Source: Butyrivibrio sp. AE3004 (GTDB taxonomy: Bacteria; Bacillota; Clostridia; Lachnospirales; Lachnospiraceae). From it: a stretch of 64,000 nucleotides of DNA. Positions 20,704-44,896 of the stretch are shown piece after piece (position 1 is the stretch's first letter; every line of letters starts with the position of its first letter). Both the position numbers and the translations under genes were made by a program. The notes beneath the pieces were generated by a model that saw nothing but the letters and a program-made list of their open reading frames with translations, had not been told where the DNA came from and did not search any database. Where the stretch lies: positions 372,001 to 436,000 of the forward strand of contig NZ_JNLQ01000002.1 in NCBI RefSeq assembly GCF_000703165.1, read 5' to 3'.

Positions 20704-20772
20704 GTCAAGTACGAATCTTGAAACTCTTTTTGCAAAATTGGTTCCCATGATGTGAGGTTTAAGGAATATATT
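20704..20772 (+). promoter_or_regulatory. Surface-regulon promoter A (GTCAAGTACGA motif plus -10)
   Basis: GTCAAGTACGAATCTTGAAA begins at 20704; a -10-like TATATT begins at 20767, 63 bases later. No -35 hexamer is found at the usual distance. The same motif and spacing precede the genes at 42319 and 44952. Confidence 0.65.
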
Positions 20773-20860
20773 AGTATGGCACGCATTATGATTTTCTAAG
20801 TGCAATGATGAAAATACATTCAGAAATCTCAAATTTTATATACATTAACCGGAGGAACAA

Positions 20861-23233
20861 ATGATTTCAATAAAAGCAAATAAAGCTCTTTCTTTTGCGC
20901 TGGCAATGGCCATGTCGGTATCTATTATGCCGACGGTATTTAGTCCTATAACAGTTAATGCGGCCGGCACAAAAGAAATAACAGGACTTGGAACGGGAGC
21001 TATCAGTGACCCGTCGAATGGCAAAGGTAACTGGGATTACGTTTACTATGGTAAATACAACGGAAATGCCGTAAAATACAGAGTCCTCGATAAGGACAGT
21101 GAGGATTTCGGAAGTGATACACTGCTTCTTGATTGCGACAATATACTTTACACACTTTCGCCCGATGAGAACATATCCAGTGCGGTAAATCTGGACAGCA
21201 TGACCGGACTTATGAAGAACTTAAACGGTGATGGCTTTTTAAATAAGAAGGACGTATTTACAGATGCGGAAAAGGATGCCATAGCAATTAGTACAAAGAC
21301 AAGCGCATCATCTACAGACGGTCAGGGAATAAACGGTAAGTTCTCAAAGCTTACAGGGAAAAAGATTTTTGCACTTGATCCAAAGGAGGCAACAAATGCT
21401 TCTTATGGCTATGTAAACAGCACTGCTTTATCCGATTACAGGATAAAGACTTCTCTGGACAGTACTTACAGGAAGGGCTCCTGGTGGCTCAGACTTCAGG
21501 ATGACAGCTTATTGCCAAAGGCGCCTGACAAATGCTACTACGTAGATAAAATCGGAAAAATCGGAAATGAAAGGATTACATATTCAGAAGGCGTAAGTCC
21601 TGCCTTTAATATCAGTCTTTCATCCATACTTTTCACATCAAAAGTGTCCGGTTCGACTAATGAGTATAAGCTTACGGTTGTTGATGACGATATGCTCCGT
21701 CCCGGGAACATTGAAGGTACACCCTCAGGGGATAAGGTAGACATTACCTTTGAGTATCCTTCAACCAAGCTTGATGATACTATCAGCTTTTCCGTTCTTC
21801 TTCTTAAAAACGAGTACGAAGCCGGAAAAACCGTTACAGCGCAATCCGAATTTAAATATATTCCGCTTACTGTGACAAGTAAGGCAGAAGGAACGCCTAC
21901 ACCGCAGTATACAAGAGTAAATGCAAGCTTCACTCTTCCTGCAGGATGTAAAAATTATTACCCGTACCTTATAAGCGAAAAGCTTGGAGGGGCAAATGAA
22001 ACAGACTACGCAAGTGTTCCCAGGCATTTTGATCTTGATAAGACAAAGCACGAACATACCTGGAAGATAACCGAGTCCAAGGGAGATAAGGTGACAACTG
22101 CTGCTGATAAGGTTGCGATTATTGCCTGCACGGAATGCTCTGTAAAATATACGGTTTCGCTTGATGCCAAGTCAAAGGTTTACGACGGAAAAGTTGCAGA
22201 GGTTGAAGTAGAGAAATCGGAAGGCTTTCCGGATAACATTGTAGTAAGTGAAGTTGTTTATAAACAGCATAACGATTCAAAGGCACTGTCAGATGAAGAA
22301 GCAAGTAATTGCGGAGAATATGATGCGGTAGTTGGTATCACGGCAGGCAGTGAAGTTGCTGAGATAAAAGATGACTTCAAGATTGAGCAGAGACTTATAT
22401 CTGCTGATATGATAACTCTCAGCGAAAACAAATATGTATACGACGGAACGGAGAAGAAACCGAAGGTTACTGTTGAGCTGGGTGACAGAGTACTTACCGA
22501 GAATGTGGATTACGAAGTTACTTATAAGGACAACATTGAGCCCGGTGTGGCAAAAGTCATTGTAACAGCAAAGAGTTCCAATTTTACCGGAAAAGCCATA
22601 AAGGACTTCATAATAAAGAAGCATGAGGATTCGGAAATCAATCCCAAGGAAGATGCCTCGGATTTAGTTGATAAAGCAAAGGATAAAGTAAAAAAGGACA
22701 ACAAGGATAATAACAGCTCATCATCTTCATCATCAAAAGGCAGCGTTATTGTTGAGGTACCGGATACGGTAAATGCAGCTCAAAGGCATAAGGTTGGTGA
22801 CAAGATAATAGATGCGGGTAATACCTACATTATTACATCCGTGAGTGATGACGATCTGACCGTAACCTTTGCGGAACCAAAGTCCAGATATGTGAAGAAT
22901 GCAACGATTCCTTTATCAATATTTGATGACGGCCTCGAATACAGAGTAACCGAAATTGCTGCAAATGCTTTCGGCGGAAGTGCAGAGCTAAAGAAAGTAA
23001 CGATTGGAGAAAACGTAAGTAAGGTTGGTAAGAATGCTTTTTATAAGTGCAGAAACTTAAAGAGCATAAGAATAAAAACTACCGGACTTACAAAGAAATC
23101 TGTCGGTAAAAATGCTTTCAAAAATATCCATCCCGAAGCAAAGGTCAAGGTTCCGAAGAGTAAAGTGGGTTCATATAAAAAGCTCTTAAAATCAAAGGGG
23201 CTTAAGGGAAAAATGCAGAAGGTTACAAAATAA
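20861..23233 (+). CDS. Secreted MBG / BspA-type leucine-rich repeat protein
   Basis: A 790-residue exported protein. Residues 1-33 are a signal peptide ending near VNAAG. Residues about 40-270 (WDYVYYGKY, VKYRVLDKD) resemble DUF6273 domains of secreted Lachnospiraceae proteins. An FN3/MBG-like part follows, with a clear MBG repeat at about 520-590 (YVYDGTEKKPKVTVEL, NVDYEVTYKDN, NFTGK). After a Ser/Asn/Lys-rich linker, the C terminus (about 630-790) carries BspA-type leucine-rich repeats (ITEIAANAFGG-like, then VGKNAFYKCRNLKSI). It has no sorting motif or C-terminal helix, so it is released or held by non-covalent contacts. Regulated by the shared upstream motif. Terminal KKLLKSKGLKGKM is basic and may bind the wall. 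Confidence 0.75.
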   Translation: MISIKANKALSFALAMAMSVSIMPTVFSPITVNAAGTKEITGLGTGAISDPSNGKGNWDYVYYGKYNGNAVKYRVLDKDSEDFGSDTLLLDCDNILYTLSPDENISSAVNLDSMTGLMKNLNGDGFLNKKDVFTDAEKDAIAISTKTSASSTDGQGINGKFSKLTGKKIFALDPKEATNASYGYVNSTALSDYRIKTSLDSTYRKGSWWLRLQDDSLLPKAPDKCYYVDKIGKIGNERITYSEGVSPAFNISLSSILFTSKVSGSTNEYKLTVVDDDMLRPGNIEGTPSGDKVDITFEYPSTKLDDTISFSVLLLKNEYEAGKTVTAQSEFKYIPLTVTSKAEGTPTPQYTRVNASFTLPAGCKNYYPYLISEKLGGANETDYASVPRHFDLDKTKHEHTWKITESKGDKVTTAADKVAIIACTECSVKYTVSLDAKSKVYDGKVAEVEVEKSEGFPDNIVVSEVVYKQHNDSKALSDEEASNCGEYDAVVGITAGSEVAEIKDDFKIEQRLISADMITLSENKYVYDGTEKKPKVTVELGDRVLTENVDYEVTYKDNIEPGVAKVIVTAKSSNFTGKAIKDFIIKKHEDSEINPKEDASDLVDKAKDKVKKDNKDNNSSSSSSSKGSVIVEVPDTVNAAQRHKVGDKIIDAGNTYIITSVSDDDLTVTFAEPKSRYVKNATIPLSIFDDGLEYRVTEIAANAFGGSAELKKVTIGENVSKVGKNAFYKCRNLKSIRIKTTGLTKKSVGKNAFKNIHPEAKVKVPKSKVGSYKKLLKSKGLKGKMQKVTK

Positions 23234-23296
23234 TCTAAATTCATATCATTAGTAAGGGGCAAAATTTACTTTTGTCCTTACATAATAAAAAGGCGT

Positions 23297-23336
23297 TAAA
23301 AAATGAGGTGTAAGGGGATTTCCCTTACACCTCATT
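23297..23336 (-). terminator. Terminator overlapping the prs stop codon
   Basis: AATGAGGTGTAAGGG pairs perfectly with CCCTTACACCTCATT around GATTT. On the minus strand it is followed by six T residues. Its first arm contains the last three codons and the TAA of prs, so translation end and termination are physically linked. Confidence 0.85.
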
Positions 23337-24419
23337 CTTATATTTTCTGATAGTATCCCGAATCCTGTTTTCGGGTTTTGCCAGAACCTGCATCGATCCA
23401 TGATTGTTGAGAGTATCGATGATAGCAGCAATGTACCTGTTCATATTTATACTGAAATAATAATCTCTTTCCAAAAGAGCAGGCTTCTGATATACAAGAT
23501 TGGTTGTAAAAATTCTTGTAAACAGACCTTCTTCATAGGCTTTGTCGAATTTATCAAAGCCGTTCAAAAACAGACCAAAGGTTGAGAAAATAAATATTCT
23601 TCTTGCTCCGCGGCTCTTTAACTGTTTACATACATCTATCATGCTTCCGCCGGAAGCGATCATATCATCTGTCACAATGGTATCAATACCATCAAGGTTA
23701 CCACCACAGAATTCATGGGCTATGATAGGATTTGATCCGTTTACTACGTGGGAGTAATCCCTTCTTTTGTAGAACATCCCCATATTAACGCCAAACAGGG
23801 TGGCAAGGAAAATGGCTCTTTCTGTTGCACCTTCGTCAGGAGCTATGAACATAAGGTTTTCGGAGTCAATTTTTAAATCCTCGTATTCCGCAAGAAGAGC
23901 CTGAGTGAATTGCAGGGCGGGTGAGATGTTTTCAATTCCTCTAAGAGGAAGAACATTTTGCATTCTGGGATCATGTGCGTCAAAGGTTACGAGGTTGTCA
24001 ACACCAAGGAATTCCAGTTCTTTTAGCATAATTGCGCAGTCAAGGGATTCTCTTGCTGTTTTTCTATGCTGCCTTCCTTCATATAAAAAAGGCATGATGA
24101 CCGTAATCCTTTTTGCTTTTCCGTTGCATGCGGCAATCACTCTTTTCAAATCCTGGTAATGGTCATCGGGAGACATACGATTGGGCTCGCCGTCCATCTT
24201 GTAGGTGATGGAATTGTTACAGACATCTACAAATATATAAAGGTCTTTTTCCCGAACGCTTTCTTCAAGCACACATTTTGCTTCACCGCTGCCAAATCTC
24301 GGGCAGGAGATATCTATAAGATAATTATCATGACCTCGCCATTTACATAAAATCTCGTTTACACGCTTAGTCTGGTTAGCAAAGGATTCAAGTGTTATCA
24401 GTGCAAGATTGTCTTCCAT
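23325..24419 (-). CDS. prs: Ribose-phosphate pyrophosphokinase (PRPP synthase)
   Basis: A 364-residue PRPP synthase, somewhat longer than the common 310-330. It has two phosphoribosyltransferase-like lobes. Visible are the ATP/ribose region FDAHDPRMQN (about 145-154), the pyrophosphate-binding APDEGATERA, KRRDYSHV, and the PRPP loop TDDMIASGGSMIDV (about 238-251), where A-S-G-G-S replaces the usual T-G-G-T. It makes PRPP from ribose 5-phosphate and ATP. Related longer enzymes are known in Firmicutes and Bacteroidetes. It is single, with its stop codon inside the terminator stem. The first ATG is used; the leader shows no strong SD. Confidence 0.88.
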   Translation of the reverse strand: MEDNLALITLESFANQTKRVNEILCKWRGHDNYLIDISCPRFGSGEAKCVLEESVREKDLYIFVDVCNNSITYKMDGEPNRMSPDDHYQDLKRVIAACNGKAKRITVIMPFLYEGRQHRKTARESLDCAIMLKELEFLGVDNLVTFDAHDPRMQNVLPLRGIENISPALQFTQALLAEYEDLKIDSENLMFIAPDEGATERAIFLATLFGVNMGMFYKRRDYSHVVNGSNPIIAHEFCGGNLDGIDTIVTDDMIASGGSMIDVCKQLKSRGARRIFIFSTFGLFLNGFDKFDKAYEEGLFTRIFTTNLVYQKPALLERDYYFSINMNRYIAAIIDTLNNHGSMQVLAKPENRIRDTIRKYKNEV

Positions 24420-24535
24420 ATATGCAAATTCCTTTCATAAAAGACTATGTAAATAATCAAATATCAATTTCAAAAATTCAACAGGACACAAAGATTCACT
24501 TTAATTATACTGTTTTAACCTAATGTGGAGATGAA

Positions 24536-24576
24536 GCCTTTCTAAAAAAACGATAAATTGTTTTTTATAGAAAGGC
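24536..24576. terminator. Long AT/GC hairpin upstream of the ABC operon
   Basis: GCCTTTCTA-AAAAAAC pairs with GTTTTTT-ATAGAAAGGC around an eight-base loop. It lies between divergent prs and the ABC operon, so it is more likely an operator or leader attenuator than the end of a gene. Confidence 0.5.
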
Positions 24577-24587
24577 GCTGTTTATAA

Positions 24588-24599
24588 CCCCCCGGGGGG
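24588..24599. promoter_or_regulatory. CCCCCCGGGGGG palindrome
   Basis: A 12-base perfect self-complementary run of six C and six G, 70 bases before the substrate-binding protein gene, in otherwise AT-rich DNA. A protein-binding site or a leader RNA element for the ABC operon is possible. Confidence 0.4.
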
Positions 24600-24669
24600 C
24601 TTAAAAATGTATTTGAATTAATATAAACTCTTATTTGCTATAGATTATTAACTTATAGGAGAGATTATT

Positions 24670-26310: not shown

Positions 26311-27230
26311 TAAAAAAGGCGATTAAAAAAATTGTCGGTTTAGCGTTAATACTTGTTATACTAAGCTTTTTCGTATTTGCACTTCTATACCTCTCACCGG
26401 GAGATCCTGCTGAAAAGAGACTTACTTCACAGGGAGTTGCGGTGACCAAGGAAGTGCTCGATGCGGAAAGACAAAGACTAGGTCTTTTAAAGCCATTCCT
26501 CGTAAGATACGGGGAGTGGCTTGTATGCGTTATCAGAGGTGATTTCGGTGTGTCATTTAAGGATGACATGCCTGTGGCACCAAAGCTTTTTACGGGACTC
26601 AAAAACACAACTATACTGGCGTCGGCAAGTCTTTTGCTATCGCTTGCTGTTTCTTTCCTTTTTTCGATAGTATCGGCTCTTAGGAAAAACAAAATATCAG
26701 ATAATGTCATAAAGCTTTTGTCATTTATCGGAAACTCACTTCCAAACTTCCTGATATCTGTTCTTCTTATGTACTTTTTATGTATTAAGATTAAAGTCTT
26801 TCCGGTTATTGCGGCAGGGGACTTAAAGGGGCTTTTCATGCCTGTTCTTTCTCTTTCAATACCCATGACAGGGAGATTTATAAGGCAGATGAGAGCCGAG
26901 TTTTTGGAACAGTTAAAGGAAGATTATGTGATCGGAATGAAGGGAAGGGGAGTAAAAAAGAGATATATTGTCTTTAATGTACTTAGAAATTCCCTCGGAC
27001 ATATTTTTACGATCATTGCCCTCCAGATAGGAACTCTCATGGGCGGAAGCGTTGTTATAGAGACTATTTTCAGATGGCCCGGAATCGGAAAGCTTGTCAT
27101 GGACTCGATAACAGCGAGAGATTATCCTGTGATAATGGGATTTGTAGTTATTATGGGAACAATATATGTGCTGATAAATCAGCTATCGGATATCATAGGA
27201 AGAATGCTTGATCCCAGGACTAATATATGA
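26307..27230 (+). CDS. ABC transporter permease 1 (NikB/DppB type)
   Basis: A 307-residue polytopic permease with about six membrane helices and the EAA-loop region before the last helices (KGRGVKKRYIVFNVLRN). The N-terminal loop LSPGDPAEKRLTSQG followed by DAERQRLGL and the later GGSVVIETIFRWPG are features I associate with nickel-type permeases of the DppB family. Forms the channel with the second permease. Coupled by ATGA overlaps on both sides to the lipoprotein gene and the next permease gene. Confidence 0.85.
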   Translation: MIKKAIKKIVGLALILVILSFFVFALLYLSPGDPAEKRLTSQGVAVTKEVLDAERQRLGLLKPFLVRYGEWLVCVIRGDFGVSFKDDMPVAPKLFTGLKNTTILASASLLLSLAVSFLFSIVSALRKNKISDNVIKLLSFIGNSLPNFLISVLLMYFLCIKIKVFPVIAAGDLKGLFMPVLSLSIPMTGRFIRQMRAEFLEQLKEDYVIGMKGRGVKKRYIVFNVLRNSLGHIFTIIALQIGTLMGGSVVIETIFRWPGIGKLVMDSITARDYPVIMGFVVIMGTIYVLINQLSDIIGRMLDPRTNI

Positions 27231-28051: not shown

Positions 28052-28054
28052 GGG

Positions 28055-28834: not shown

Positions 28835-28837
28835 TCT

Positions 28838-29581: not shown

Positions 29582-29620
29582 GCAGATAAAAACATGCGAC
29601 TACAGACGAGGTGAAAAGTA

Positions 29621-31307: not shown

Positions 31308-31327
31308 ATGCAAATATACTTCGATAG

Positions 31328-32428
31328 TTATTTCGCAAATGATGTACTAAAGGAAACCTCACGATAGATTTTTTCGATTTTATCGATATGCGAATCAAAG
31401 CTGTAACCTTCATCGGCGAGCTTAAGGCTCTGCCTGCTTGCTTCTTCCCAGGATGCTTTGTCGGAGAAATAGGAAATTATTCCCGAAGCCATTCCGGTAA
31501 CATCCTTGGGTTTATATAGTTTTCCGTTTATATCTTTGGATACAACACGTGGAATTCCTCCGACCTCACAGGATACGATAGGAAGTGCATAGCCCATAGC
31601 TTCAAGAATGGACATGGGCATTGCTTCCATGTGAGAGGGGAGAAGGAAGATAGAACTTTCTTTTAAAAGCTTTATCTTTTCATCGCCTCTTATCCAACCC
31701 GGGAGTATGACTGTATCTTCCAAATGCAGTCTTTTTATTTCATTTTCAGTAGGCTGTGTTTCACCCGTTCCGCCAAGTACAAATCTGGCTTCTGGAAATT
31801 CTTTCTTTACTATATCTGCTATTGCAGGGATATCAACGACCCCTTTAAGATCATCAAAGCGTCCAAGATATAATATTTGTTTTTTCTCAAAACGTTCCTG
31901 CATCACTTTATCAGAGATCATCTCGGGAACAATCACGCTGTAATTTGGAATAACTTCTATTTTGTCTGCAGGCACTATTGCTGATATTTTCTTTTTCCAA
32001 TCCTCAGATAAAACAATAAGTCTGGTGCATTCTCCATAGCTCTTTTCTACCATCCTTTTTTTCCAGGCTGGTGCATTTGTGTAGAGCTCATCGAGGGCAG
32101 AACCGTGAATATGGTTAACAATAGGGATTCCTGCCTTGTGGGCCATATGAATTATGGGATATTTTCTGAAAAAACTGGGACCGAAGGAAGAGTGAACATG
32201 GACTACATCCGGTCTGTTGGTTTTTAGGACTTTTCGGAATTCCCGATAGGCTTTAAGAGCCTTTATGAGTTTTGAAAATTTTCCCCCGTCACGGTAGGAT
32301 TCAACGTAAGTTATATCAAAATCCTTTTCAAGGCGACTATTATAGTAACCGCTTGTGACTGCGGCAATTCCGCCTTTTACATTGGGATCCTGGACTATCA
32401 TGCATATTTTTAGCTTTGAATTCGACAT
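31328..32428 (-). CDS. Family 4 glycosyltransferase
   Basis: A 366-residue GT-B fold glycosyltransferase. The N-terminal lobe has GGIAAVTSGYYNS and VHVHSSFGPSFF; the C-terminal lobe shows LYLGRFDDLKGV, the sugar-nucleotide site LPSHMEAMPMSILEAMGYALPIVSCEVGG (only key parts: E-x7-E region EAMPMSILE) and GIPRVV. It lacks membrane segments and would act at the cytoplasmic face on cell-surface glycan or exopolysaccharide. The gene stands alone, convergent with the methyltransferase transcript. Sugar donor and acceptor are unknown. Confidence 0.85.
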   Translation of the reverse strand: MSNSKLKICMIVQDPNVKGGIAAVTSGYYNSRLEKDFDITYVESYRDGGKFSKLIKALKAYREFRKVLKTNRPDVVHVHSSFGPSFFRKYPIIHMAHKAGIPIVNHIHGSALDELYTNAPAWKKRMVEKSYGECTRLIVLSEDWKKKISAIVPADKIEVIPNYSVIVPEMISDKVMQERFEKKQILYLGRFDDLKGVVDIPAIADIVKKEFPEARFVLGGTGETQPTENEIKRLHLEDTVILPGWIRGDEKIKLLKESSIFLLPSHMEAMPMSILEAMGYALPIVSCEVGGIPRVVSKDINGKLYKPKDVTGMASGIISYFSDKASWEEASRQSLKLADEGYSFDSHIDKIEKIYREVSFSTSFAK

Positions 32429-33100: not shown

Positions 33101-33133
33101 TACCAAAAAATAAATCGAAAGGATTATCAGAAA

Positions 33134-34690: not shown

Positions 34691-34733
34691 CAGCAGACAA
34701 CAAATATATTAAAGAGTGGATTTTGCATAAATA

Positions 34734-36368
34734 ATGAAAAATATAGCATATAGAGTAAAGTTCATAGGATATGTGACCCTGATGCTCGTAAGCCTCTTTC
34801 TGGGCGGAGTAGCTATAGCTTACAGATGGGAGATCTTATGGGTATTGTTCTTTACGCTTGTTTTCTCCCTTTTTCTGGTCCTGGCGGGTTACACCTACAT
34901 GACCAGTCAGAGGGACAGTGCTTATGAGACACTTCGTAAGCAAAAACAGATTGATGAAGAGGACGCCAAACGCAGAATGGAATATTTTGCAAATATGGCA
35001 CATGAGATAAGGACACCTATCAATGCAATCCTTGGCTATGATGAGCTGATACTTAGGGAGTACAACGATCCTGCACTAAGGCAGTATGCTTATAACATAA
35101 GGTCTGCCGGTAACACTCTTTTGGCACTAATAAACGACTCGCTGGATTATTCGAGAATTGAAGCGGGGAAAATGGAGCTCTTTGTTTCAGAATATGACCT
35201 TGGTACTGTGATTGAGGATATGATGAGCCTTATACGTCCAAGAGCACTTGCTAAAGGGCTTGAGTTAAAGGGATTCATAAACAAAAATGCGCCAAGGAGA
35301 CTTTACGGGGACGCAAACAGGCTGAAACAATGTATGGCCAATATTCTTACGAATGCCGTGAAATATACGCAGGAAGGTGAGATAGACTTTTCCGTTGATT
35401 TTGAAAGCTTAAGTAAGGATACCATTCTCCTTAAGGTTGCGGTAAGAGATACCGGAATAGGTATAAAGGAAGAGGACATAAAAAAACTCTATGAGCCTTT
35501 TGAGAGAATCGATGAGGACAGGCTTGGAAGCATAGAGGGAAGCGGACTTGGCATTTCAATTGTAAGAAAGATACTTTCTCTCATGGACTCGGAATTGCAG
35601 GTGGAGAGTATTTACGGAGAGGGAAGTAATTTCCACTTTTCCATAAAACAGAGAGTTGCAGGTCCTGAATCCATCGGAGATTTTGCCCAGGGCTATGCTC
35701 GTAACGTCATTGATAAGACCCATTTTGAGATCAGCTTCAAGGCACCTGAGGCGAGAGTGCTTGTTGCTGATGATGCGGAACTCAATCTTGCGGTTATGGA
35801 AGGACTTCTTAACGGTACGGGAATTCAGGTTGATTCTGCAATGTCTGCAGCAACAGCTCTGGAATTTGCCAAGAACAATGATTATGATCTTATATTCCTT
35901 GATCTAAACCTTCCGGAAATTAGAAGCAAAGATATGATAAAAAGATTTCGCGGTGAGTCAAAAAATGACTTAGGTGGAAAAGAAAGTCGCCGTTCCAATA
36001 TGATGCTTCATCGCAGAGTTCAGGAAAAGGCTAAGAACAAAGATAAACAAGGTGGCAATAAAGATGGGGCAAAAGAGCGCACACATAACTCTGCTACACC
36101 TGTTATAGCATTGACAGCAGGTGTACTTCAGGATGTGCAGAGTGAATATAAAAAACTCGGTTTTTCGGATTATCTCCTGAAACCTATAGTATACAAGGAA
36201 TTGGAAACAATACTTTCAAAGTATCTTCCTCATGAAAAAATAATCAGAAACAGTAATAAGATTAATGATTATATAAGAAAAAGATCTTCAGATACTCCGC
36301 TTCTTGCGACGGATGAAAAGCTGCAGGAGGCACTCAATATTCTGGCACAAAGGGAGCAGGTAAATTGA
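34734..36368 (+). CDS. Hybrid histidine kinase (2 TM, HisKA, HATPase, receiver)
   Basis: A 544-residue membrane kinase. Two membrane helices (about residues 10-57) have almost no external loop. HisKA has the phosphorylatable His in MAHEIRTPINAIL (about residue 90). The ATPase domain has the N-box NILTNAVKYT (about 203-212), DTGIGI, and the lid GSGLGIS. A C-terminal receiver follows (VLVADDAELN, acceptor Asp in IFLDLNLPE about residue 388, TAG, and LLKPIV), interrupted by a basic, Gln/Lys/Gly-rich insert of about 35 residues (near 412-450) between strands 3 and 4. It is the only kinase of the four-gene signalling cluster with a complete catalytic core. It overlaps the next gene by one codon. 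Confidence 0.9.
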   Translation: MKNIAYRVKFIGYVTLMLVSLFLGGVAIAYRWEILWVLFFTLVFSLFLVLAGYTYMTSQRDSAYETLRKQKQIDEEDAKRRMEYFANMAHEIRTPINAILGYDELILREYNDPALRQYAYNIRSAGNTLLALINDSLDYSRIEAGKMELFVSEYDLGTVIEDMMSLIRPRALAKGLELKGFINKNAPRRLYGDANRLKQCMANILTNAVKYTQEGEIDFSVDFESLSKDTILLKVAVRDTGIGIKEEDIKKLYEPFERIDEDRLGSIEGSGLGISIVRKILSLMDSELQVESIYGEGSNFHFSIKQRVAGPESIGDFAQGYARNVIDKTHFEISFKAPEARVLVADDAELNLAVMEGLLNGTGIQVDSAMSAATALEFAKNNDYDLIFLDLNLPEIRSKDMIKRFRGESKNDLGGKESRRSNMMLHRRVQEKAKNKDKQGGNKDGAKERTHNSATPVIALTAGVLQDVQSEYKKLGFSDYLLKPIVYKELETILSKYLPHEKIIRNSNKINDYIRKRSSDTPLLATDEKLQEALNILAQREQVN

Positions 36369-38191
36369 AATTCAACATCTTTCTCGAGTTGGCGGTAATC
36401 CCGCTGGACTTTATATTGTGCGTATTTTTCCAAATCAGATATACGGATAATACGAGAGTGAACAGAGAGTTTAAGCTTCTGTCATATCTTGTGTTCTTTG
36501 GTACGATCATCGACGTAGTTGATGCGGTCATGCTGGCCTATGAGTCTGTTCTTCCACCTGTTTCGATGTATGCCATTAATACATTAAACTACGCTTTGGC
36601 AACATTCGGAGCGTATCAGTTTGTAAGATACGTTATTTCATATGTTGGTGAAGAGTATTATCAGACTACGGGAGCCTTTATAAACAGGGTACTTTTGCTG
36701 ATATATTCAGCCATTCTCATTCAGAATTTTTTTACTGGAACGGTATTTTCATATTCTCCGGACAGACATATGATATCAGGCCCTCTGTTTACTCTTGTTG
36801 TCTATGCATATCCGCTGTATTACATCATGAGCGGAGGCGTATTTATTCTAAGTCATGGTGAGAGCTATGCCAGAAAAATGAAGTATGCACTTGCGGCAAC
36901 CTTTGGATTTATGGTCACACTGTACTCGCTTCAGATGTTTTTCTACAGGGACCTTCTGGTAACTTTTTTTGCTGCTTCAATCGCTATACTTGTAATTTTC
37001 CTTACACTTGAAACACCCGACTATGTAAAGCTTACCAAAACTCTTGAGGAGCTTTCCATATCAAAGAGAGAACTAGAAGCATCAAGCATAAGAGCGACTG
37101 AGGCGAGTCATGCAAAAACAAGATTTCTTGCTCAGATGTCGAATGATATCAGAACACCTGTGAATGCTATTATGGGTTATTCGAATCTGATACTTGCAGA
37201 TACAAATGAGGAAGCCACCAAGGAGTATACAAGACGTGTGAAAATATCCGCCAAGAGACTTCTTACCTTCTTTGAAAATGTACTGAATTATGTTTCTGAA
37301 GAGACAGGGGAAAATGGTCCAAGAAGACTTCCTTCCATGGCTGACCTCATAGATAAGGTTGATGAAAATGAGTTTCTTGGGCCGGAAGAGCAGGTTGGCA
37401 GAAGAGGAATCATAGGTGCCTCCGATATGAGAATTCTTGTGGTTGATGATACTCCGTTAAACCTGGATCTTCTGGTAAGGATTCTGGCACCTATGGGATT
37501 TACGGTTGATACGGCTTCTGATGGGCAGCAGGCTATCATGCAGGTCAGAAAGTTTCGCTATGACATTATTTTCATGGACCATCTGATGCCTGTACTAGAC
37601 GGAATAGCAGCCTTCAGGCAACTTAGAGATGAAAAGCTCTGTGACAATACACCTGTCATTATGCTGACAGCAAACGCTGTTGTCGGGGAAGAGGAGAAGT
37701 ATTTAAAGGAAGGCTTTGCCGCATATCTGACCAAACCTTTTTCTGAGGATAAGGTTACGGATATACTTGAGAAATTTCTTTCTGTTAATAATTCAAAGAT
37801 TAGCGGTGATATGGATGTCAGTTTCTGGGAGAATTTACAGGAAAAGCTTCCTATGGTAAGGGTTGCGGATGCCAGAGAATATACACTTCATGATATCAAG
37901 CTGTACAAGAAGATACTCATGGAGTACTCGGAAGAGGAAGTCGGCAGTGATATTTCACTTGCTATAAGGACTTCGGATTACAATAAGTGCATGGCTCTTA
38001 TAAGATCTGAGAGAGATAAGGCTGAGCTCATTGGTGCTGATAAGCTGGTTAAAATGGCGGAAAGGCTCGAGAGCTTATGTAAAAAGAGGGAGTTCAATCT
38101 TCTTCGTGAGAGAATAGGGGCTTTTGCGCAGGAACGAAACGATATAGCAAATGCACTATACGAGAGGCTACAGGTGGAGACCGGTGAATAA
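36365..38191 (+). CDS. Membrane protein with substituted HisKA and HPt plus receiver
   Basis: A 608-residue protein. About six N-terminal membrane helices (1-220) form a sensor module shared with the gene at 38572. A HisKA-like segment follows, but its His is Asn (QMSNDIRTPVNAIMG, about residue 260), and no ATPase domain comes after it. The receiver (about 355-480) keeps all key residues: VVDDTPLN, FMDHLMPVLDG, MLTAN, TKPF. A C-terminal HPt-like helical bundle (about 510-600) has Arg where the phospho-His should be, judged by alignment to the gene at 38572 (LIGADKLVKMAERLES against TIGADALSEEALRLEN). It starts with TTG overlapping the upstream TGA, after AGGGAGCAGG. Confidence 0.8.
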   Translation: MKFNIFLELAVIPLDFILCVFFQIRYTDNTRVNREFKLLSYLVFFGTIIDVVDAVMLAYESVLPPVSMYAINTLNYALATFGAYQFVRYVISYVGEEYYQTTGAFINRVLLLIYSAILIQNFFTGTVFSYSPDRHMISGPLFTLVVYAYPLYYIMSGGVFILSHGESYARKMKYALAATFGFMVTLYSLQMFFYRDLLVTFFAASIAILVIFLTLETPDYVKLTKTLEELSISKRELEASSIRATEASHAKTRFLAQMSNDIRTPVNAIMGYSNLILADTNEEATKEYTRRVKISAKRLLTFFENVLNYVSEETGENGPRRLPSMADLIDKVDENEFLGPEEQVGRRGIIGASDMRILVVDDTPLNLDLLVRILAPMGFTVDTASDGQQAIMQVRKFRYDIIFMDHLMPVLDGIAAFRQLRDEKLCDNTPVIMLTANAVVGEEEKYLKEGFAAYLTKPFSEDKVTDILEKFLSVNNSKISGDMDVSFWENLQEKLPMVRVADAREYTLHDIKLYKKILMEYSEEEVGSDISLAIRTSDYNKCMALIRSERDKAELIGADKLVKMAERLESLCKKREFNLLRERIGAFAQERNDIANALYERLQVETGE

Positions 38192-38552: not shown

Positions 38553-38571
38553 TAGGGGATGAGGGAGAAAG

Positions 38572-41070
38572 ATGCTGTTACATAATTTGTCCTTTGGTTT
38601 ATCAGCGATTTTATATGATATTATAATTTGCGTTTTTCTGAAGCTGACCTATACGGATTCCTACAGAACTACCAAGGCGTTCAGGCGCTTTGCGTATTTT
38701 CTTACTGCTGCGACAATGATTGAAGTTGCAACGGTTCTGGTTGAAATGTATGCGGTTTATGTGCCGCCTGCAGGACATTATACCGCACATGCTTTTAATA
38801 TTCTTTCGGCAACAGTTGCCGCAAATTCCTATGCTGAGTACATAGTAGCCTGTGCCAATGTTGGTATTAAGGATACACTCTTATACAAGATAAATCTTGC
38901 GGTAATAATCGGGCAGTGTTTCCTACTGGTTCAGAATGTTTATACCGGAAATGTATTTGCTTATACCCTTGAGGATGGTTACACACGTGGCATGATGTAT
39001 TTGGCCTGCTCATTTCTTCTTCCCGCATACTATGTGCTACTTGCGGCGGGCTTTGTAAGCGTGAATAGGAAAAGCTATACATTACTTCAGCTTTTCAGTA
39101 TAGTTATTGCAACGTTCATAGTTATTACAATTTATCTGGTGCAGATGTTTGTTTTAAAACATGTGGTTCTTATTTTCTTTTCTGCATCAGTTGCACTTCT
39201 TGTACTTCTTTTTACGCTTGAGACACCGGATTATCACAGGCTTGAAAGGACCATCGGGAAACTGGAAAGTGCCGAGAAGGCTGCTCTTGAAGCAAGAAAA
39301 AAGGCTGAAGAAGCCAATGAAGCAAAGAGCGAATTTTTGTCACAGATGTCCCATGAAATAAGGACTCCTATTAATTCAATTCTTGGTTTTGATAATCTGA
39401 TCCTGGAACACACAAATGATGTAAAGGTATCCGAGTATGCAGCAAAGATAAAAGGTGCGGGCGAGACCCTGCTTGCTTTTTTTAATAACCTGCTTAATCT
39501 TATTGCGCAAAATCCGGGCGAGGATGTGGATATCAGCAGTTTGTTTGATTATTCTGCGCTCCTTGAGACAGACATGGAGGAGATAATAGTTCCAATAATG
39601 CCCAAGGCAAATGTTCTCGTGGTTGATGATAATGCCATGAATGTTGATCTTTTGCTAAAGATCCTGAATAAAACCGATGCCCGTATTGATACTGCGGTTG
39701 ATGGTCAGAAGGCACTTATGAAGCTTCGAAAGAAGACATACGATCTTGTTATCATGGATCACATGATGCCCATAATGGATGGTGTTGAAACACTTAGCAT
39801 TATGAGAGAAGAGAGACTTAGCAGAAGTGCTCCCGTTATCATGCTGACAGCGGGAGGCCTAAGAGGCGATGAGGAAAGGTTTAAGGAGCTTGGCTTTGAT
39901 GCATATTTGACAAAACCTGTCGTTGCGGAAAAGCTGTATGATCTTTTGATAGATATTATGCCAACGGCGCTTATTGAGAGAAGAGCATCCTTAGAGCACC
40001 TTTTCTATATGGAGAACAAGGAAAATAAGGAAAAAGAAGACAAAGAAAGGGTAGGACAGACAGTCCGCAAAAGACGAACCCTTGCTGAAATATTTTCGGT
40101 ACTTAATGTGACTGATGCTCTTGGCTTTTGCATGGGAGATGAAGAGTTCTATTTATCACAGCTTGAAATATTTGCTGAGAATAAAAAGGGAGATGAGCTG
40201 GAGGAACTTCTGCAAAAAGAAGACTTTGAGGAATATCTTATTTCGGTTCATACTCTTAAAAGTACAGCAAAAACCATAGGCGCGGATGCTTTATCAGAGG
40301 AAGCATTAAGACTTGAAAATGCGCTTAAGGAAGGAAATACGGAACTTGTAAGAAAAGAACACCCTGCACTTAAAGAGCACTATGAACTTCTTTGCGAGGA
40401 CCTGCGAAAAGGTTTTAAGGAATACAGGCAGGCCGGAATATCCAATAACGAAGAAGCAAGTGAAAATGAGCTTGCGATTGCTGAGCTCAGTGAGTTTTCC
40501 GGAACAGGTCTGTCCGCTCAGATACTTATGGCTCTTGCAAATACGGTTGATTCAAGGGATATAAATAATCCCGGCAGGTCCCTCAGAGTTGCTAAATACT
40601 CCATGGAGATAGCAAGGAGGCTTGGAAAAAGCGATTCGGAGCAGCAGAATATTTATTATATGGGGCTTGTTCATGATATAGGGAAACTGATAATACCTGA
40701 AAAAATCCTTAGGAAGCCTGATATCCTGACGGAGGAAGAGGCTGAGATTGTTCGTCAGCATCCTATAATCGGCTATGAGATTTTAAGAAATATATCGGAA
40801 ATGCCGGGACTTGCTACCGGCGCAAGATGGCATCATGAAAGATACGACGGAACGGGATATCCCGACGGTCTTGCCGGTGAAGAAATACCTATAGAGGCAA
40901 GGATTATAGGAATAGCGGATGCTTACGATGCCATGACTTCCGAAAGGGCCTATGCATCTGTTATGCCGCCTCTCAGAATAAAAAAAGAGCTGGAGAAGAA
41001 CCGCGGAAAGCAGTTTGATCCGGCACTTGTGGATGTACTTATAAGTATGATGGACGAAAGTTCTATGTAA
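38572..41070 (+). CDS. Membrane relay protein with HPt and HD-GYP phosphodiesterase
   Basis: An 832-residue multi-domain protein. Six-helix membrane module (1-220, like the gene at 36365); a coiled linker; HisKA-like helices with the His intact (QMSHEIRTPINSIL, about residue 261) but no ATPase domain; receiver (about 345-465: VVDDNAMN, IMDHMMPIMDG, MLTAGG, TKPV); HPt with His (VHTLKSTAKTIGADAL, about residue 560); and an HD-GYP domain (about 665-830) with VHDIGKLIIP and HHERYDGTGYPDG intact. The last domain should hydrolyse c-di-GMP to GMP/pGpG. GATGAGGGAG precedes the ATG. It is the last gene of the signalling cluster, with a terminator after it. Confidence 0.9.
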   Translation: MLLHNLSFGLSAILYDIIICVFLKLTYTDSYRTTKAFRRFAYFLTAATMIEVATVLVEMYAVYVPPAGHYTAHAFNILSATVAANSYAEYIVACANVGIKDTLLYKINLAVIIGQCFLLVQNVYTGNVFAYTLEDGYTRGMMYLACSFLLPAYYVLLAAGFVSVNRKSYTLLQLFSIVIATFIVITIYLVQMFVLKHVVLIFFSASVALLVLLFTLETPDYHRLERTIGKLESAEKAALEARKKAEEANEAKSEFLSQMSHEIRTPINSILGFDNLILEHTNDVKVSEYAAKIKGAGETLLAFFNNLLNLIAQNPGEDVDISSLFDYSALLETDMEEIIVPIMPKANVLVVDDNAMNVDLLLKILNKTDARIDTAVDGQKALMKLRKKTYDLVIMDHMMPIMDGVETLSIMREERLSRSAPVIMLTAGGLRGDEERFKELGFDAYLTKPVVAEKLYDLLIDIMPTALIERRASLEHLFYMENKENKEKEDKERVGQTVRKRRTLAEIFSVLNVTDALGFCMGDEEFYLSQLEIFAENKKGDELEELLQKEDFEEYLISVHTLKSTAKTIGADALSEEALRLENALKEGNTELVRKEHPALKEHYELLCEDLRKGFKEYRQAGISNNEEASENELAIAELSEFSGTGLSAQILMALANTVDSRDINNPGRSLRVAKYSMEIARRLGKSDSEQQNIYYMGLVHDIGKLIIPEKILRKPDILTEEEAEIVRQHPIIGYEILRNISEMPGLATGARWHHERYDGTGYPDGLAGEEIPIEARIIGIADAYDAMTSERAYASVMPPLRIKKELEKNRGKQFDPALVDVLISMMDESSM

Positions 41071-41080
41071 ATTTTTCTAT

Positions 41081-41099
41081 ATTGATGATACGAATTACT
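41081..41099 (+). repeat. 19-base direct repeat, left copy, flanking the LytTR gene
   Basis: ATTGATGATACGAATTACT recurs as ATTGATGACACGAATTACT at 42013-42031 on the other side of the LytTR gene (one mismatch). It may be a binding site pair of the regulator. Confidence 0.5.
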
Positions 41100-41116
41100 A
41101 CTTACTCAAATTTTAA

Positions 41117-41175
41117 GGGTCAAGAAGTCATGATGCGATTTATTCAAGGATAATCGTATTATGACCTCTTGACCC
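41117..41175. terminator. Bidirectional terminator between HD-GYP and LytTR genes
   Basis: GGGTCAAGAAGTCAT pairs with ATGACCTCTTGACCC (one mismatch), with an inner GATT/AATC dyad. It separates two convergent genes. The arm contains the 11-mer CAAGAAGTCAT. Confidence 0.75.
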
Positions 41176-41253
41176 TATTATCATATTACTTTTGTTAAAA
41201 TCAAAATATTCTGCATGATTTTTAGCCATCGATGGATGGCATTTCTTCATTAA

Positions 41254-41973
41254 TTATAAATCTCTCATGGCATAATCCGCCAGCATTCTATTTGCCTCTC
41301 TAAGGCTTTCCCTTCTGATATGAACAGAATCTCCATCCTTCATTTCAAAGACCTGAAGCTCCTTGTCGATGCTTTTTACGTGCGCGAGATTTACAAGATA
41401 ACTCTTGTGGCACCTCATAAAGGAATCGTCCGGAGTCTGAGCTTCGATATCATCCAGTTTTCCTGTTAGCTGAAGGGTTGCTCCGTTTGCCATATGCAGA
41501 TAAAGAGTATGAGCGCTTTGTTCCACGTAACATATCTTTTCAAAGGAAAAAGTCATATCCTTACCGCCTATACGTACGGATACTCCACCCTGTGCTCCCT
41601 TCATCTGCGCGGCAAGCTCAAGTACTTCGCCGACTTCAATAGGATCAAAGGGCTTCATGAGATAACGGATTACGCGATTTTTGTAGCCTTCCATGGCGTG
41701 ATCCTGACTGGAAGTTGCAAATACGATTGGGACGGATGCGTCAATGCTGCGAATTTTAGTCGTGGCATCCACTCCGCCCATTCCCGGCATAAGAATATCC
41801 ATAAATATCAGGTCATAAACACCCGGACGGAAAGCAGATAAAAAGGCTTCTCCGGATTCAAATAGATTGATCTCGGTTCCGGGACGATGCTTTTCAATAA
41901 GAAACTGTAACTGACGTCTCTGAGCCATTTCATCGTCGCAGACTGCAATTTTCATAGTATCAGAGCTACTCAT
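41254..41973 (-). CDS. LytTR-family response regulator
   Basis: A 239-residue regulator. Receiver domain (1-120): AVCDDEMAQRRQL, acceptor Asp in IFMDILMPGMGG, Ser in FATSSQ, and LMKPFDP. LytTR DNA-binding domain (about 133-239): ICYVEQSAHTLYLH, SFMRCHKSYLVNLAHVKS with the basic surface, and a final SLREANRML. It controls transcription of virulence, bacteriocin or surface genes in other Firmicutes. The ATG at 41973 is preceded by GAGGGAG; the TTG at 41988 falls on the binding site itself. No cognate kinase of the LytS type is adjacent, but the sensor cluster is convergent with it. It lies between promoter elements A and B, C. Confidence 0.9.
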   Translation of the reverse strand: MSSSDTMKIAVCDDEMAQRRQLQFLIEKHRPGTEINLFESGEAFLSAFRPGVYDLIFMDILMPGMGGVDATTKIRSIDASVPIVFATSSQDHAMEGYKNRVIRYLMKPFDPIEVGEVLELAAQMKGAQGGVSVRIGGKDMTFSFEKICYVEQSAHTLYLHMANGATLQLTGKLDDIEAQTPDDSFMRCHKSYLVNLAHVKSIDKELQVFEMKDGDSVHIRRESLREANRMLADYAMRDL

Positions 41974-42012
41974 ATGTATCTCCCTCAAATATTAAAGATA
42001 AATATACCCATT

Positions 42013-42031
42013 ATTGATGACACGAATTACT
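42013..42031 (+). repeat. 19-base direct repeat, right copy
   Basis: Matches 41081-41099 at 18 of 19 bases. It lies about 40 bases upstream of the LytTR start, where autoregulation sites are common. Confidence 0.5.
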
Positions 42032-42182
42032 GCGATGCAAGTAACTCCCGTAATTCTAACAAATATTCGGAAACCGAATAAAAGCTCCTTCCTAATGTTT
42101 GCTACGGGATTCGAAGTTATCATAATATATTTTATCATAAAATAGCACACAGAGAACATTGATTAGCATATTTATAATAATT

Positions 42183-42251
42183 GTCAAGTACGAATTTTGA
42201 AATGTTTTGTTCATTTTCAGTATAAATATGATTGATGACTATTGGTATAAT
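42183..42251 (+). promoter_or_regulatory. Surface-regulon promoter B (GTCAAGTACGA motif plus -10)
   Basis: GTCAAGTACGAATTTTGAAA begins at 42183 and TATAAT at 42246, exactly 63 bases apart. No -35 match is found 17 bases before the -10 (sequence TAAATA). Confidence 0.7.
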
Positions 42252-42318
42252 TAAAATTGTAAAATTTTGTCACGGAAATGGGGTCTTATTTTCCGTACGA
42301 AAGGTGATGGGGAGATAG

Positions 42319-42966
42319 ATGAATAATAATGTGTTTGGAAGTAGGGCAATTGCGCATCTGCGTATTTTGCTTGCGATTTGCGCAGTTGTTCTGCTACCAT
42401 GCAGTGGTATCAGAGCCATGGCATGGGATTCCGGAGTTTATCGTAACAAGGTTATTTTTACTGCACCAAGTGCTGAGAAGATTTTCGATGGCACACCACT
42501 TACTGAACAGATAGATGTTACCGCTCAGGGATTACCTGATGGCTTTACCTATAAGGCGGTAGCAGAGGGGAGTGTTACGTATCCGGAGGATAATGAAGAA
42601 AATAATAATATAGTAACAGATTATGTAATTTATGATCCGAGTGGACTCAATGTTACTGATAAATTTGTTAACGTTGAGCTTCGTCCCGGTACGCTCAGAA
42701 TCAGTGAAAAAGAAGCTGTTCTTGGTGCTAAGAGAGACGAAGAGACATCAGATTCGGATGCCGGAGGAGAGAGTAGGATTAAAACTGATAATGCCGATGA
42801 AGGGGACACAGTCGATATTGAAGACGAAGAAACGGCAAAATCAGATAAAATGAATAACCGGGGCGATTATTCGCTTGAACTTGTCCTTTATAGTTTCTTG
42901 ATAATTATAATGCTCGCTGTTTTCGTTATTTTTATGATGGATAGCAATAAGATGAGGGAAAAATGA
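42319..42966 (+). CDS. Small membrane-anchored MBG-like surface protein
   Basis: A 215-residue exported protein. Signal peptide about 1-34 (AHLRILLAICAVVLL, then RAMA). One MBG-like domain (about 45-132: APSAEKIFDGTPLTE, NVELRPGTLRIS) resembles the last domain of the 2587-residue protein (TAEKVYDKTPL). Then VLGAKRDEE (about 136-144), the same motif as near the end of the giant protein, an acidic linker of about 45 residues, a membrane helix (about 187-208) and a short tail with Lys/Arg. It starts after GGGGAG. Its TGA overlaps the ATG of the diguanylate cyclase gene by four bases. It may display a sensing or binding domain outside. Confidence 0.7.
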   Translation: MNNNVFGSRAIAHLRILLAICAVVLLPCSGIRAMAWDSGVYRNKVIFTAPSAEKIFDGTPLTEQIDVTAQGLPDGFTYKAVAEGSVTYPEDNEENNNIVTDYVIYDPSGLNVTDKFVNVELRPGTLRISEKEAVLGAKRDEETSDSDAGGESRIKTDNADEGDTVDIEDEETAKSDKMNNRGDYSLELVLYSFLIIIMLAVFVIFMMDSNKMREK

Positions 42967-44603
42967 AATCGATTCAGGAAAAAATAACTCTTCTCACGAC
43001 AATAGCAATACTGATGGTAGCGCTTATTGTCGGAGGTACGGCTATTTATACACTCAGGCAGGTGGGAAACTATGATTCCGCCCGCATTCTAAATCTGACC
43101 TGCGAGACTGAAACCAATGATATAGACAGAATCCTGTTCAACACTGAGGAGGCTGTTAATATTCTGGCGGATTATGCAGTCGAGCGTCTGTTTTCTGTTG
43201 AAAAGCTTGCCAGTGATGAAGCTTACAGAGATAGCTATACTGTGCAGCTTGCCAATCTTTTTTCCAATATAGCGGCGAATGTGCCGGGAACAGTTTCATA
43301 CTATGTGCATTACAATCCGGAGATAATGCCTTCTGACAGCGGCCTTCTATATATAAGGGATTCTGTTAATGATGATTTTACATACATGCAGCCTACGGAT
43401 ATCAATTTGTATGATCCTGATGATATCGAGCATGTTGTCTGGTGGTATGAACCTGTAAGGAAGGGCGGACCGACATGGGTTGAACCGTATCATAATGCTA
43501 ATCTTGAAAAATATCTTATATCTTATATAGTTCCTCTTTATGAAAATGGGGTTCTTATCGGAATTGCCGGAATGGATATAGATTTTTATAGCATGATTGA
43601 TACTGTAAAGGCTATTAAATGCTATGAGACCGGATATGCGTGCCTTGTGGATAATGAAGGATTAGTATATTACAATCCTCTTTTTGATACCGGTACTAAA
43701 ATGGAAGATATGGGTATTGAAGGCGACATGTCTTTTGAAAGTGAGAGCAATGGCTCAGAACCTCTTGCGTATAGCATGGGTGGTATAGATAAACAGCTTG
43801 CTTACAGGACATTGTCCAATGGTATGAGACTTATAATCACAGCTCCTGTCAAAGAAATTTTGGCTATGAGTAATGAGCTGATGAGAAGAGTCATTATTTC
43901 TACTATATTAGTACTGTTTACATTCCTGTTCCTTACCATAATGGTGAGCCGCAGAATCACAAGTCCTCTTAAGAGCCTTGCGCGTGTGGCACGTGAGATC
44001 AATGATGGAAAACTTGAAGTGGTATTCCCGAAGGAAACCAAGGATGAGGTCGGAGAACTGACACATGCCATGGAAAAAATGGTTCATCATTTGAAACACC
44101 ATATTGATGATCTTAATTCACTTGCTTATCATGATTCACTTACCGGGGTTAAGAACAAGACCGCATATGATGATGCAGCATCAAAGCTGGATCTTCAGGA
44201 AGGCGATAAGGAATATGGCATTGTCGTATTTGATGCCAATAATCTTAAGAAGATCAATGATACCTATGGCCATGAGCGCGGAAATATTTATCTGCAAAAT
44301 GCATGCAGACTTACCTGCAGGATATTTAAAGGAAGTCCTGTATTCAGAATAGGAGGAGACGAATTTGTAGTCATTCTGCAGGGCGAAGATTATGATAACT
44401 GCTACAAACTCCTAAGAGATTTTGATGTCGAGGCAGAACGCCATAACATGGAGACAACAAACGAGTGGGAGAAGATAAACATCGCCAAGGGAATGGTTAA
44501 ATATGATCCCGAAACTGATTCAAATGTTGAGTCGGTATTCAAGCGTGCTGATGCCAGAATGTATGTTGCAAAGCAGAAAATGAAGCTTGCTGAGATGGGG
44601 TAA
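42963..44603 (+). CDS. Cache-HAMP-GGDEF diguanylate cyclase
   Basis: A 546-residue membrane protein. First helix about 8-30, an external Cache-type sensor (about 35-290: YYVHYNPEIM, WWYEPVRKGGPTWVEPYHN, GIAGMDIDF), second helix (about 300-325), HAMP (SRRITSPLKSL onward) and a GGDEF domain (about 385-546). The active-site motif RIGGDEFVVIL is intact, with LTGVKNKTAYDD and FDANNLKKINDTYGHERGN. There is no RxxD inhibitory site five residues before GGDEF (the sequence there is RIFK). It should make c-di-GMP on binding a small carboxylate or amino acid, as related sensors do. It is translationally coupled to the small MBG protein. Confidence 0.9.
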   Translation: MKSIQEKITLLTTIAILMVALIVGGTAIYTLRQVGNYDSARILNLTCETETNDIDRILFNTEEAVNILADYAVERLFSVEKLASDEAYRDSYTVQLANLFSNIAANVPGTVSYYVHYNPEIMPSDSGLLYIRDSVNDDFTYMQPTDINLYDPDDIEHVVWWYEPVRKGGPTWVEPYHNANLEKYLISYIVPLYENGVLIGIAGMDIDFYSMIDTVKAIKCYETGYACLVDNEGLVYYNPLFDTGTKMEDMGIEGDMSFESESNGSEPLAYSMGGIDKQLAYRTLSNGMRLIITAPVKEILAMSNELMRRVIISTILVLFTFLFLTIMVSRRITSPLKSLARVAREINDGKLEVVFPKETKDEVGELTHAMEKMVHHLKHHIDDLNSLAYHDSLTGVKNKTAYDDAASKLDLQEGDKEYGIVVFDANNLKKINDTYGHERGNIYLQNACRLTCRIFKGSPVFRIGGDEFVVILQGEDYDNCYKLLRDFDVEAERHNMETTNEWEKINIAKGMVKYDPETDSNVESVFKRADARMYVAKQKMKLAEMG

Positions 44604-44634
44604 CTATTAAAATTCAATAAATGTGACAAATGAA

Positions 44635-44679
44635 TATGACTTCTTGAACGTAAAAATGAAAAGCGTTCAAGAAGTCATA
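44635..44679 (+). terminator. Long hairpin after the GGDEF gene
   Basis: TATGACTTCTTGAACG pairs perfectly with CGTTCAAGAAGTCATA around 13 bases. There is only a weak T tract after it (ATATTTT). It carries the CAAGAAGTCAT 11-mer found also at 1100 and 41121. Confidence 0.65.
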
Positions 44680-44827
44680 ATATTTTAAAAAGTATAGGAA
44701 ATATAAGGAATTTAAAGCTGCGGAGTGATCTGCAGCTTTTTCATTATCATAAATATATTTATTTTTGAAAATATAAGCACAATTCGATATTACTGAGAAT
44801 AGAGCAGATGCATAGAGACCGGTATTT

Positions 44828-44896
44828 GTCAAGTACGAGTTTTGCATAAAATTTTTCAAATTTAGTGAATTTTCTTGAAAAAATCTTTCGTATAAT
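44828..44896 (+). promoter_or_regulatory. Surface-regulon promoter C (GTCAAGTACGA motif plus -10)
   Basis: GTCAAGTACGAGTTTTGCAT begins at 44828 and TATAAT at 44891, exactly 63 bases later. Position 44868-44873, where a -35 should be, reads AATTTT. The 5' leader to the giant gene is about 50 bases. Confidence 0.7.

Follow-up and report, generated by a model that had tools for sequence, protein, structure and literature searches.

A probable LytTR regulon of surface and export genes in Butyrivibrio with the usual promoter distance and an unusual dyad operator in place of a -35 element

Among the described regulators carrying a LytTR domain, ComE belongs to the peptide-signal, direct-repeat type, and the algD sites of AlgR in Pseudomonas aeruginosa are, by the title of Mohr 1992, inverted repeats separated by a large segment. 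Here we describe a box standing at a fixed distance before promoters of surface and export genes in Butyrivibrio sp. AE3004, together with a LytTR response regulator proposed as its reader; the window, that is, the whole stretch of DNA analysed, comprises 64,000 nucleotides (contig NZ_JNLQ01000002.1, positions 372,001 to 436,000, forward strand). In contrast with the far-apart inverted sites of AlgR, also of the LytTR family, two arms lie here in one operator that is repeated across the regulon. In the portion of PMC6193735 drawn on here, LytTR promoters carry direct repeats of 9 bp, in most cases with 12 bp between them, and a -35 element follows mostly 10 bp further on, as in the example ACCACTTAC-12-ACCACTTAT, and the HdrR/BrsR type of regulator is paired with a membrane inhibitor. 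Direct repeats are also found for AgrA of Staphylococcus aureus, with a site centre near -60 and a suboptimal -35/-10 spacing (passages of PMC4227749), and for SilA, with two 10-bp repeats and an 11-bp spacer in a peptide-signal system (passages of PMC2766830). In B. proteoclasticus, three LytTR response regulators lie near secreted enzymes and Listeria/Bacteroides-repeat surface proteins, with no box mentioned (passages of PMC2914790). No described report of the present box or regulon was found in the literature searched, which consisted of titles and passages and included few subscription journals, and a text search for GTCAAGTACGA returned nothing on this subject by title.

In the window, GTCAAGTACGARTYTTG occurs exactly at 20704, 42183 and 44828, always on the + strand, and a whole-window search at up to three mismatches gave a single extra match, at 31772, with three mismatches, the mean for 100 shuffles being 0.44 hits. 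Exactly 63 bases past the first base of each box, there begins a -10-like hexamer (TATATT, TATAAT and TATAAT, in this order), a CA at +29/+30 and a G at +37 are common to all three boxes, and the place of a -35 with a 17-bp spacer (positions 40-45) holds CCCATG, TAAATA and AATTTT, so that no -35 is present at any of the three sites. A preliminary description of this DNA, made from the letters and their reading frames, had reported the motif, the spacing, the shared bases, the missing -35 and the lack of a further copy in the window, and on all of these points it was accurate. It had also pictured a small regulon of three genes, to be checked by a genome-wide search; in the 4.47-Mb genome, this search gave nine matches to the 17-mer at up to two mismatches, seven of them with a -10 at exactly +63, and thus the spacing stood while the size did not, the regulon being larger than three, with seven promoters in this genome and as many as 11 in one relative. 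The remaining two matches (C2:2560542 and C2:3372475) have, by reading, no -10 at +63. The 9-mer GTCAAGTAC alone was discarded as a marker for want of enrichment, the genome having 43 copies of its reversed control and 22 of the 9-mer itself.

An extended pattern, in which the box is followed by TATAAT at +63 and at most three mismatches are allowed, and which therefore itself selects for a -10, found 79 sites in 11 of the 61 genomes of the genus. Each of these 11 has between 3 and 11 sites, and the reversed control of the pattern gave no hit. When the -10 was not selected for, a hexamer with at least five of six matches to TATAAT stood at +63 in 25 of the 26 Butyrivibrio-titled stretches among the matches listed, the sole exception there being locus L085, with its -10 at +62. 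Single 17-mer matches in genomes G019 and G047 have no -10 at +63 and were lost under the extended pattern. When 84,980 species, represented by one genome apiece, were scanned for the 17-mer, at least 120 stretches came up, 80 of them listed, and on visual inspection 50 of these 120 were discarded as coding or as lacking a promoter. A phage origin was considered and rejected: three of the four viral-contig matches lack a -10-like hexamer at +63, and the fourth (L183) has TATCAT (5/6) there, but its proximal arm, judged by eye, is out of line, and there is no gene seen close to it.

The box is about 40 bp long with dyad symmetry, and not a 17-mer. Among 77 distinct sites, index 6-19 is complementary to index 26-39 at 10.14 of 14 positions around centre 22.5, compared with 2.3-4.7 of 14 for 12 other centres tried, and six individual sites reach 13 or 14 positions. 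The proximal arm extends as far as the -35 position and, at the place set by the -10, none of the 77 sites has five or six matches to TTGACA, with three having four. Further downstream, index 43-62 is low in information: apart from index 58, with 0.53 bits, no column exceeds 0.27 bits in a table of 62 sites, which included L183 and, from outside the genus, L070 and L146. This low information bears on the possibility that the whole promoter segment is copied or mobile DNA bringing its own -10, with the spacing due to copying and not to protein contacts: despite the near-identical distance in nearly all Butyrivibrio sites and the three copies within 24 kb, that possibility is already contradicted by a spacer that has diverged while its length was kept, as well as by the -10 at +63 to +66 in 23 of 33 sites outside the genus and by the shift of about one helical turn in L075 and L165, and we give it practically no credence. 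Upstream of the Butyrivibrio boxes, a CA at index -17/-16 is frequent (43 and 41 of 62 sites), followed by an A-rich stretch.

Outside the genus, 31 loci were kept, with 33 sites, and the -10 (5/6 matches) lies at +64 or +65 in 20 of the 23 sites that have one at +63 to +66. The proximal arm is frequently GTACTGG in these loci, and in the two Oscillospiraceae loci just named it is, by reading, displaced together with the -10. Just outside the distal arm, GTCAA (TTGAC on the regulator strand) occurs in 10 of the 15 loci with a divergent regulator gene and at none of the other sites of the 31 loci, and from its sequence this looks like the -35 of the regulator gene itself.

The candidate reader in the window has both domains by Pfam, Response_reg with 72.2 bits (cut-off 30.2) and LytTR with 63.7 bits (cut-off 22.6), and is one of the carriers of the 10 LytTR domains in its genome. 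Its best match spanning both domains among the matches listed is ComE (4cbv; profile 5-231, E 3e-16). The receiver residues D14, D59, T87 and K107, those expected of a phosphorylation site, are invariant in 15 aligned members. An ortholog of this regulator (78-100% identity) is found in exactly the 11 of 61 genus genomes that have the box; in the other 50, the best regulator match is E 1.1e-30 or weaker, with identity of at most 37% among the matches listed. The chance of this coincidence would be 2.4e-12 if the 11 genomes were independent draws, a figure that their relatedness weakens. In at least six relatives (L161, L049/L094, L085, L103, L051/L162 and L134), the regulator gene lies beside the box that precedes a small exported protein and a diguanylate cyclase.

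The association extends beyond the genus. Among the 31 kept loci, there are 15 in which a divergent LytTR gene begins 42-185 bp away from the box, and a 16th in which the distance is 484 bp. A tree of 37 proteins sets these 16 box-linked proteins and the 11 Butyrivibrio regulators apart from 10 other LytTR proteins, several of them with long branches; the separating branch has a support of 88/79, below the tool's starred level. A profile built from 15 box-linked proteins, with L063, L165, L158, L142 and L170 scored but outside it, gives 251-375 bits for the box-linked proteins vs. at most 190 for other LytTR proteins. The exact 17-mer pattern GTCAAGTACGANTTNTG occurs in 3 of 250 genomes of a family sample (249 genera, its own included), namely, the present genome, G151 and G267, and when the profile was run on 20 hand-picked genomes, just G267 (363 bits) and G151 (269 bits) exceeded 250, the other 18 having no box promoter and at most 179 bits. 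G267 has a one-mismatch 17-mer divergent from its regulator gene and three exact boxes on other contigs; these three are identical letter for letter to L081, L124 and L160, and only G151 is wholly new. In a class-wide regulator search, with at most nine candidates scored per genome, 42 of 291 genomes came out above the cut, and only the present genome above 190 bits. Box and regulator clade are thus both rare, and they coincide. The LytTR gene at 41254, which the preliminary description had suggested testing for binding, gains support as reader from the shared set of 11 genomes and from the divergent clade members in other genera.

Another regulator travelling with these species might still read the box, with the LytTR gene a mere neighbour or a member of the regulon, and the HD-domain hybrid, MBG-small and GGDEF genes, also conserved beside the box within the genus, would agree with that. 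However, Oscillospiraceae, Ruminococcus, Roseburia, Hornefia and [Clostridium] citroniae keep the same LytTR clade beside the box while the genes across it differ by eye, and G267 and G151 carry both box and clade member where 18 other genomes carry neither, which makes such a reader quite improbable.

Set against the canonical LytTR promoter, the distance is the usual one and the architecture is not. In 12 computed rows of PMC6193735, the first repeat lies 57-64 nt before the -10, 63 nt in seven of the 12 (our own calculation, with three bases counted into the printed extended -10 strings), and the present box falls within this range and on its most frequent value. This match supports, as far as those rows go, the common activator at a fixed position that the preliminary description had proposed. 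The box does not show the canonical 9-10-bp direct repeats with an 11-13-bp spacer and an ACC..TTA consensus, the dyad scoring 10.14 of 14 vs. 6.74 for the best direct repeat; it lacks, at 77 sites, the -35 hexamer 4-11 bp past the second repeat (none with at least five of six matches); and GTCAAGTAC shares, by reading, five of nine letters with ACCACTTAC. As far as the cited passages describe them, the HdrR/BrsR-type systems resemble this one in the LytTR domain, the offset, the presumed activation from just upstream of the promoter and the site beside the regulator gene, whereas the long dyad, the missing -35 and the receiver domain are found here. No open reading frame (ORF) of at least 100 aa follows the regulator gene on its strand before the opposite 38572-41070, and thus, among such ORFs, there is no membrane-inhibitor operon. 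AgrA (PMC4227749, in part) is also a response regulator with a LytTR domain and a site centre near -60, but with direct repeats and other targets. ComE and SilA likewise differ in their direct repeats, SilA being in addition a peptide-signal system, and the 21-bp repeat period of SilA (PMC2766830, in part) is the second-best register of the present box. We conclude that this is very probably a LytTR regulon that keeps the usual distance and departs from the known type in its dyad operator, which comes without a -35, the earlier account being right in outline. Operators of the PlcR, ArgR, LexA and ComR type were also considered.

From what was computed, namely, the box, its spacing, the dyad, the missing -35, the co-occurrence, the gene adjacency and the nature of the targets, we infer with high confidence that members of a LytTR clade bind the dyad and thereby activate the -35-less promoters of a surface and export regulon, with binding, activation rather than repression, phosphorylation, a partner kinase and the signal as the conjectural parts. 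Most likely, the 17-mer forms the promoter-distal arm in the operator of this regulator, and the full operator would be a dyad of approximately GTCAAGTACGRAWTWTGAAC-N6-GTTCATATTCNGTA, centred on index 22.5, which lies near -52 when the start of the -10 is put at -12. Each arm would be bound by one of two LytTR domains and, with the proximal arm ending on the place of the missing -35, the bound and presumably phosphorylated regulator would replace the -35 contact, recruit RNA polymerase to the -10 at the fixed 63 nt and so start transcription. The regulon would serve the surface, with giant anchored proteins, small exported proteins, lipoproteins and signal peptidases I, and it would include the exported protein and the diguanylate cyclase encoded next to the regulator gene.

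Several observations weigh against this interpretation. LytTR sites of the canonical kind consist of direct repeats and have a different consensus. The best direct repeat of the box, at offset 21 of the offsets 14-33 tried, comes second to the dyad; a mixed reading may apply, with the dyad plus a 21-bp direct register, the same period as in canonical LytTR repeats. When arms from different sites are paired, they match as well (9.9 of 14 positions complementary) as the two arms of one site do, so that the dyad is a symmetry of the consensus columns and not a matter of covariation, the latter being seen in just one of eight mate pairs (17/28, p=0.008, 74 sites). Within the genus, any other gene restricted to these 11 species would show the same distribution as the regulator, and the 11 may be one lineage. 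At 29 lower-scoring relatives of the regulator (whole loci, five of them with cut flanks), there is no box, the best 17-mer match having three mismatches in one locus and 4-6 in 28, and the box therefore belongs to a narrow clade. The box at 20704 is a weak copy. At 10 of the 33 outside sites, there is no -10 (5/6) at +63 to +66, which lowers our confidence very slightly.

The alternative that survives best keeps the same LytTR clade as reader and has it mainly repress, the dyad blocking the -35 region until the regulator is inactivated. The end of the proximal arm at the -35 position would suit a repressor, and binding could repress the regulator's own leftward promoter, given the GTCAA by the distal arm in 10 of 15 divergent loci. 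On the other hand, target promoters without a -35 (none of 77 with at least 5/6) should be weak without an activator, and the offset is that of promoters activated by LytTR proteins in the cited part of PMC6193735. We therefore consider repression unlikely, though a little less so than a reader outside the LytTR clade, and we retain activation through the dyad.

The targets were surveyed at 59 distinct box promoters from hand-chosen loci, 52 of them with a first gene in reach. By rule, these comprised 16 giant SDYNSIG proteins, eight signal peptidases I, eight small VLGxxR proteins, seven MBG-small proteins, nine others with a hydrophobic N-terminus and four without; by eye, L094 was reassigned as a giant variant, L161 as MBG-small, L053 as a signal peptidase, L066 and L218 as having signal peptides, and L169 as out. 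Judged by eye, 50 of the 52 readable targets are exported or are signal peptidases, the exceptions being L169 (MalT-like) and L045, and on this count the surface regulon of the preliminary description holds up. It had further described the three window targets as exported MBG proteins, one of them coupled to a diguanylate cyclase: export and cyclase stand, and the MBG assignment is weak by Pfam, with MBG_3 at 23.5 bits vs. a cut-off of 25 in 20861-23233 and no MBG Pfam family in the other two; for the protein of 42319..42966, a Pfam scan at E up to 1 gave no family at all. A YDGT/FDGT stretch, which we take to resemble that of MBG domains, is present in all three. MBG domains are not what unites the targets, which also include lipoproteins, signal peptidases and small VLGxxR proteins.

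The giant proteins have in common an unusual signal peptide, approximately MRKxIARKxAxLLAxVVLxTTFxSDYNSIGxRA, which is seen at 44952-45060 in the window and in L067, L084, L089, L102, L106, L132, L134 and L176; judging from its letters, it is perhaps a dedicated export signal, with signal peptidases I in the same regulon. The VLGxxR motif recurs in 42319-42966 and 44952-52715, preceding a C-terminal hydrophobic stretch in both, and in the small proteins of L097, L098, L140, L144, L145 and L167, and could possibly be a processing or anchoring signal. Outside Butyrivibrio, the box of L124, L148, L154 and L166 precedes genes for 76-87-aa proteins that resemble, by eye, the helix-hairpin-helix of the RNA polymerase alpha C-terminal domain, and MalT-like ATPase regulators stand, also by eye, downstream of the box promoters of L169 and L240. 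Among the targets elsewhere in the genome, the lipoprotein ORF at C2:1847924 starts 328 bp past the box and is the first ORF of at least 70 aa with a ribosome site; the ORF at C1:357848 (L010) has no clear start or signal peptide, and the gene may be truncated.

Table 1. Box promoters, proposed reader, target genes and conserved neighbour, with window coordinates except where a contig (C1, C2) is given.
Feature	Position	Strand	Basis or remark
Box 1, weak copy	20704..20749	+	Upstream of DUF6273/LRR_5 protein gene; 3 mismatches to extended pattern
-10 hexamer TATATT	20767..20772	+	Starts 63 nt after box 1 start
Exported 790-aa protein (DUF6273, LRR_5, weak MBG_3)	20861..23233	+	Pfam; signal peptide by eye
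HisKA-REC-Hpt-HD_5 protein, conserved neighbour	38572..41070	+	Pfam; no HATPase_c detected
LytTR response regulator (REC + LytTR), proposed reader of box	41254..41988, ATG at 41973	-	Pfam, orthologs, adjacency
Box 2	42183..42228	+	Between regulator gene and divergent target operon
-10 hexamer TATAAT	42246..42251	+	Starts 63 nt after box 2 start
Small exported protein: FDGTPLT (MBG-like), VLGAKR, C-terminal hydrophobic stretch	42319..42966	+	Sequence reading
dCache-HAMP-GGDEF diguanylate cyclase, same operon as 42319 gene	42963..44603	+	Pfam
Box 3	44828..44873	+	Motif match, extended pattern
-10 hexamer TATAAT	44891..44896	+	Starts 63 nt after box 3 start
2587-aa surface protein: SDYNSIG-type signal peptide, Listeria-Bacteroides repeats, VLGAKR/VLGARR, C-terminal hydrophobic anchor	44952..52715	+	
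Target: 94-aa exported protein	C2:984652		Named by eye, no family search
Target: signal peptidase I, then large protein with sortase-like C-terminal signal	C2:1222201		By eye, no family search
Target: lipoprotein	C2:1847924		By eye, no family search
Target: Ig-like ORF	C1:357848 (L010)		By eye, no family search

The signalling genes around the regulator include a histidine kinase gene at 34734, a lone receiver gene at 38151 and, at 36365-38191, a HisKA-REC protein gene with no HATPase_c detected between HisKA and REC (scan at E 0.001 only). Their domain content, together with that of 38572, suggests where the input of the regulator may come from, the protein of 38572..41070 being a possible signalling partner. 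A gene for a PilZ-domain protein (52894-54810) lies next to that of the giant surface protein, and the diguanylate cyclase, the HD-domain protein and this PilZ protein suggest, from their domains, a coupling to cyclic-di-GMP.

LytTR regulators are common in these bacteria, yet no regulon described for them was found in the literature searched, and sequence now allows the box, the regulator and the targets to be identified in 11 genomes of Butyrivibrio and in several further genera, which makes "one LytTR, one box, one regulon" a testable proposition. It is possible, and we offer it tentatively, that in Clostridia a LytTR clade moved from direct-repeat operators to dyad operators replacing the -35, and that the one in Butyrivibrio runs a dedicated display pathway, with giant SDYNSIG proteins, signal peptidases I of its own and small VLGxxR proteins, tied to cyclic-di-GMP via the diguanylate cyclase and HD-domain genes. 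With a dyad operator replacing the -35, the LytTR domain, known for direct repeats, would acquire a further mode of recognition. For rumen biology, the present results supply a candidate switch for surface display.

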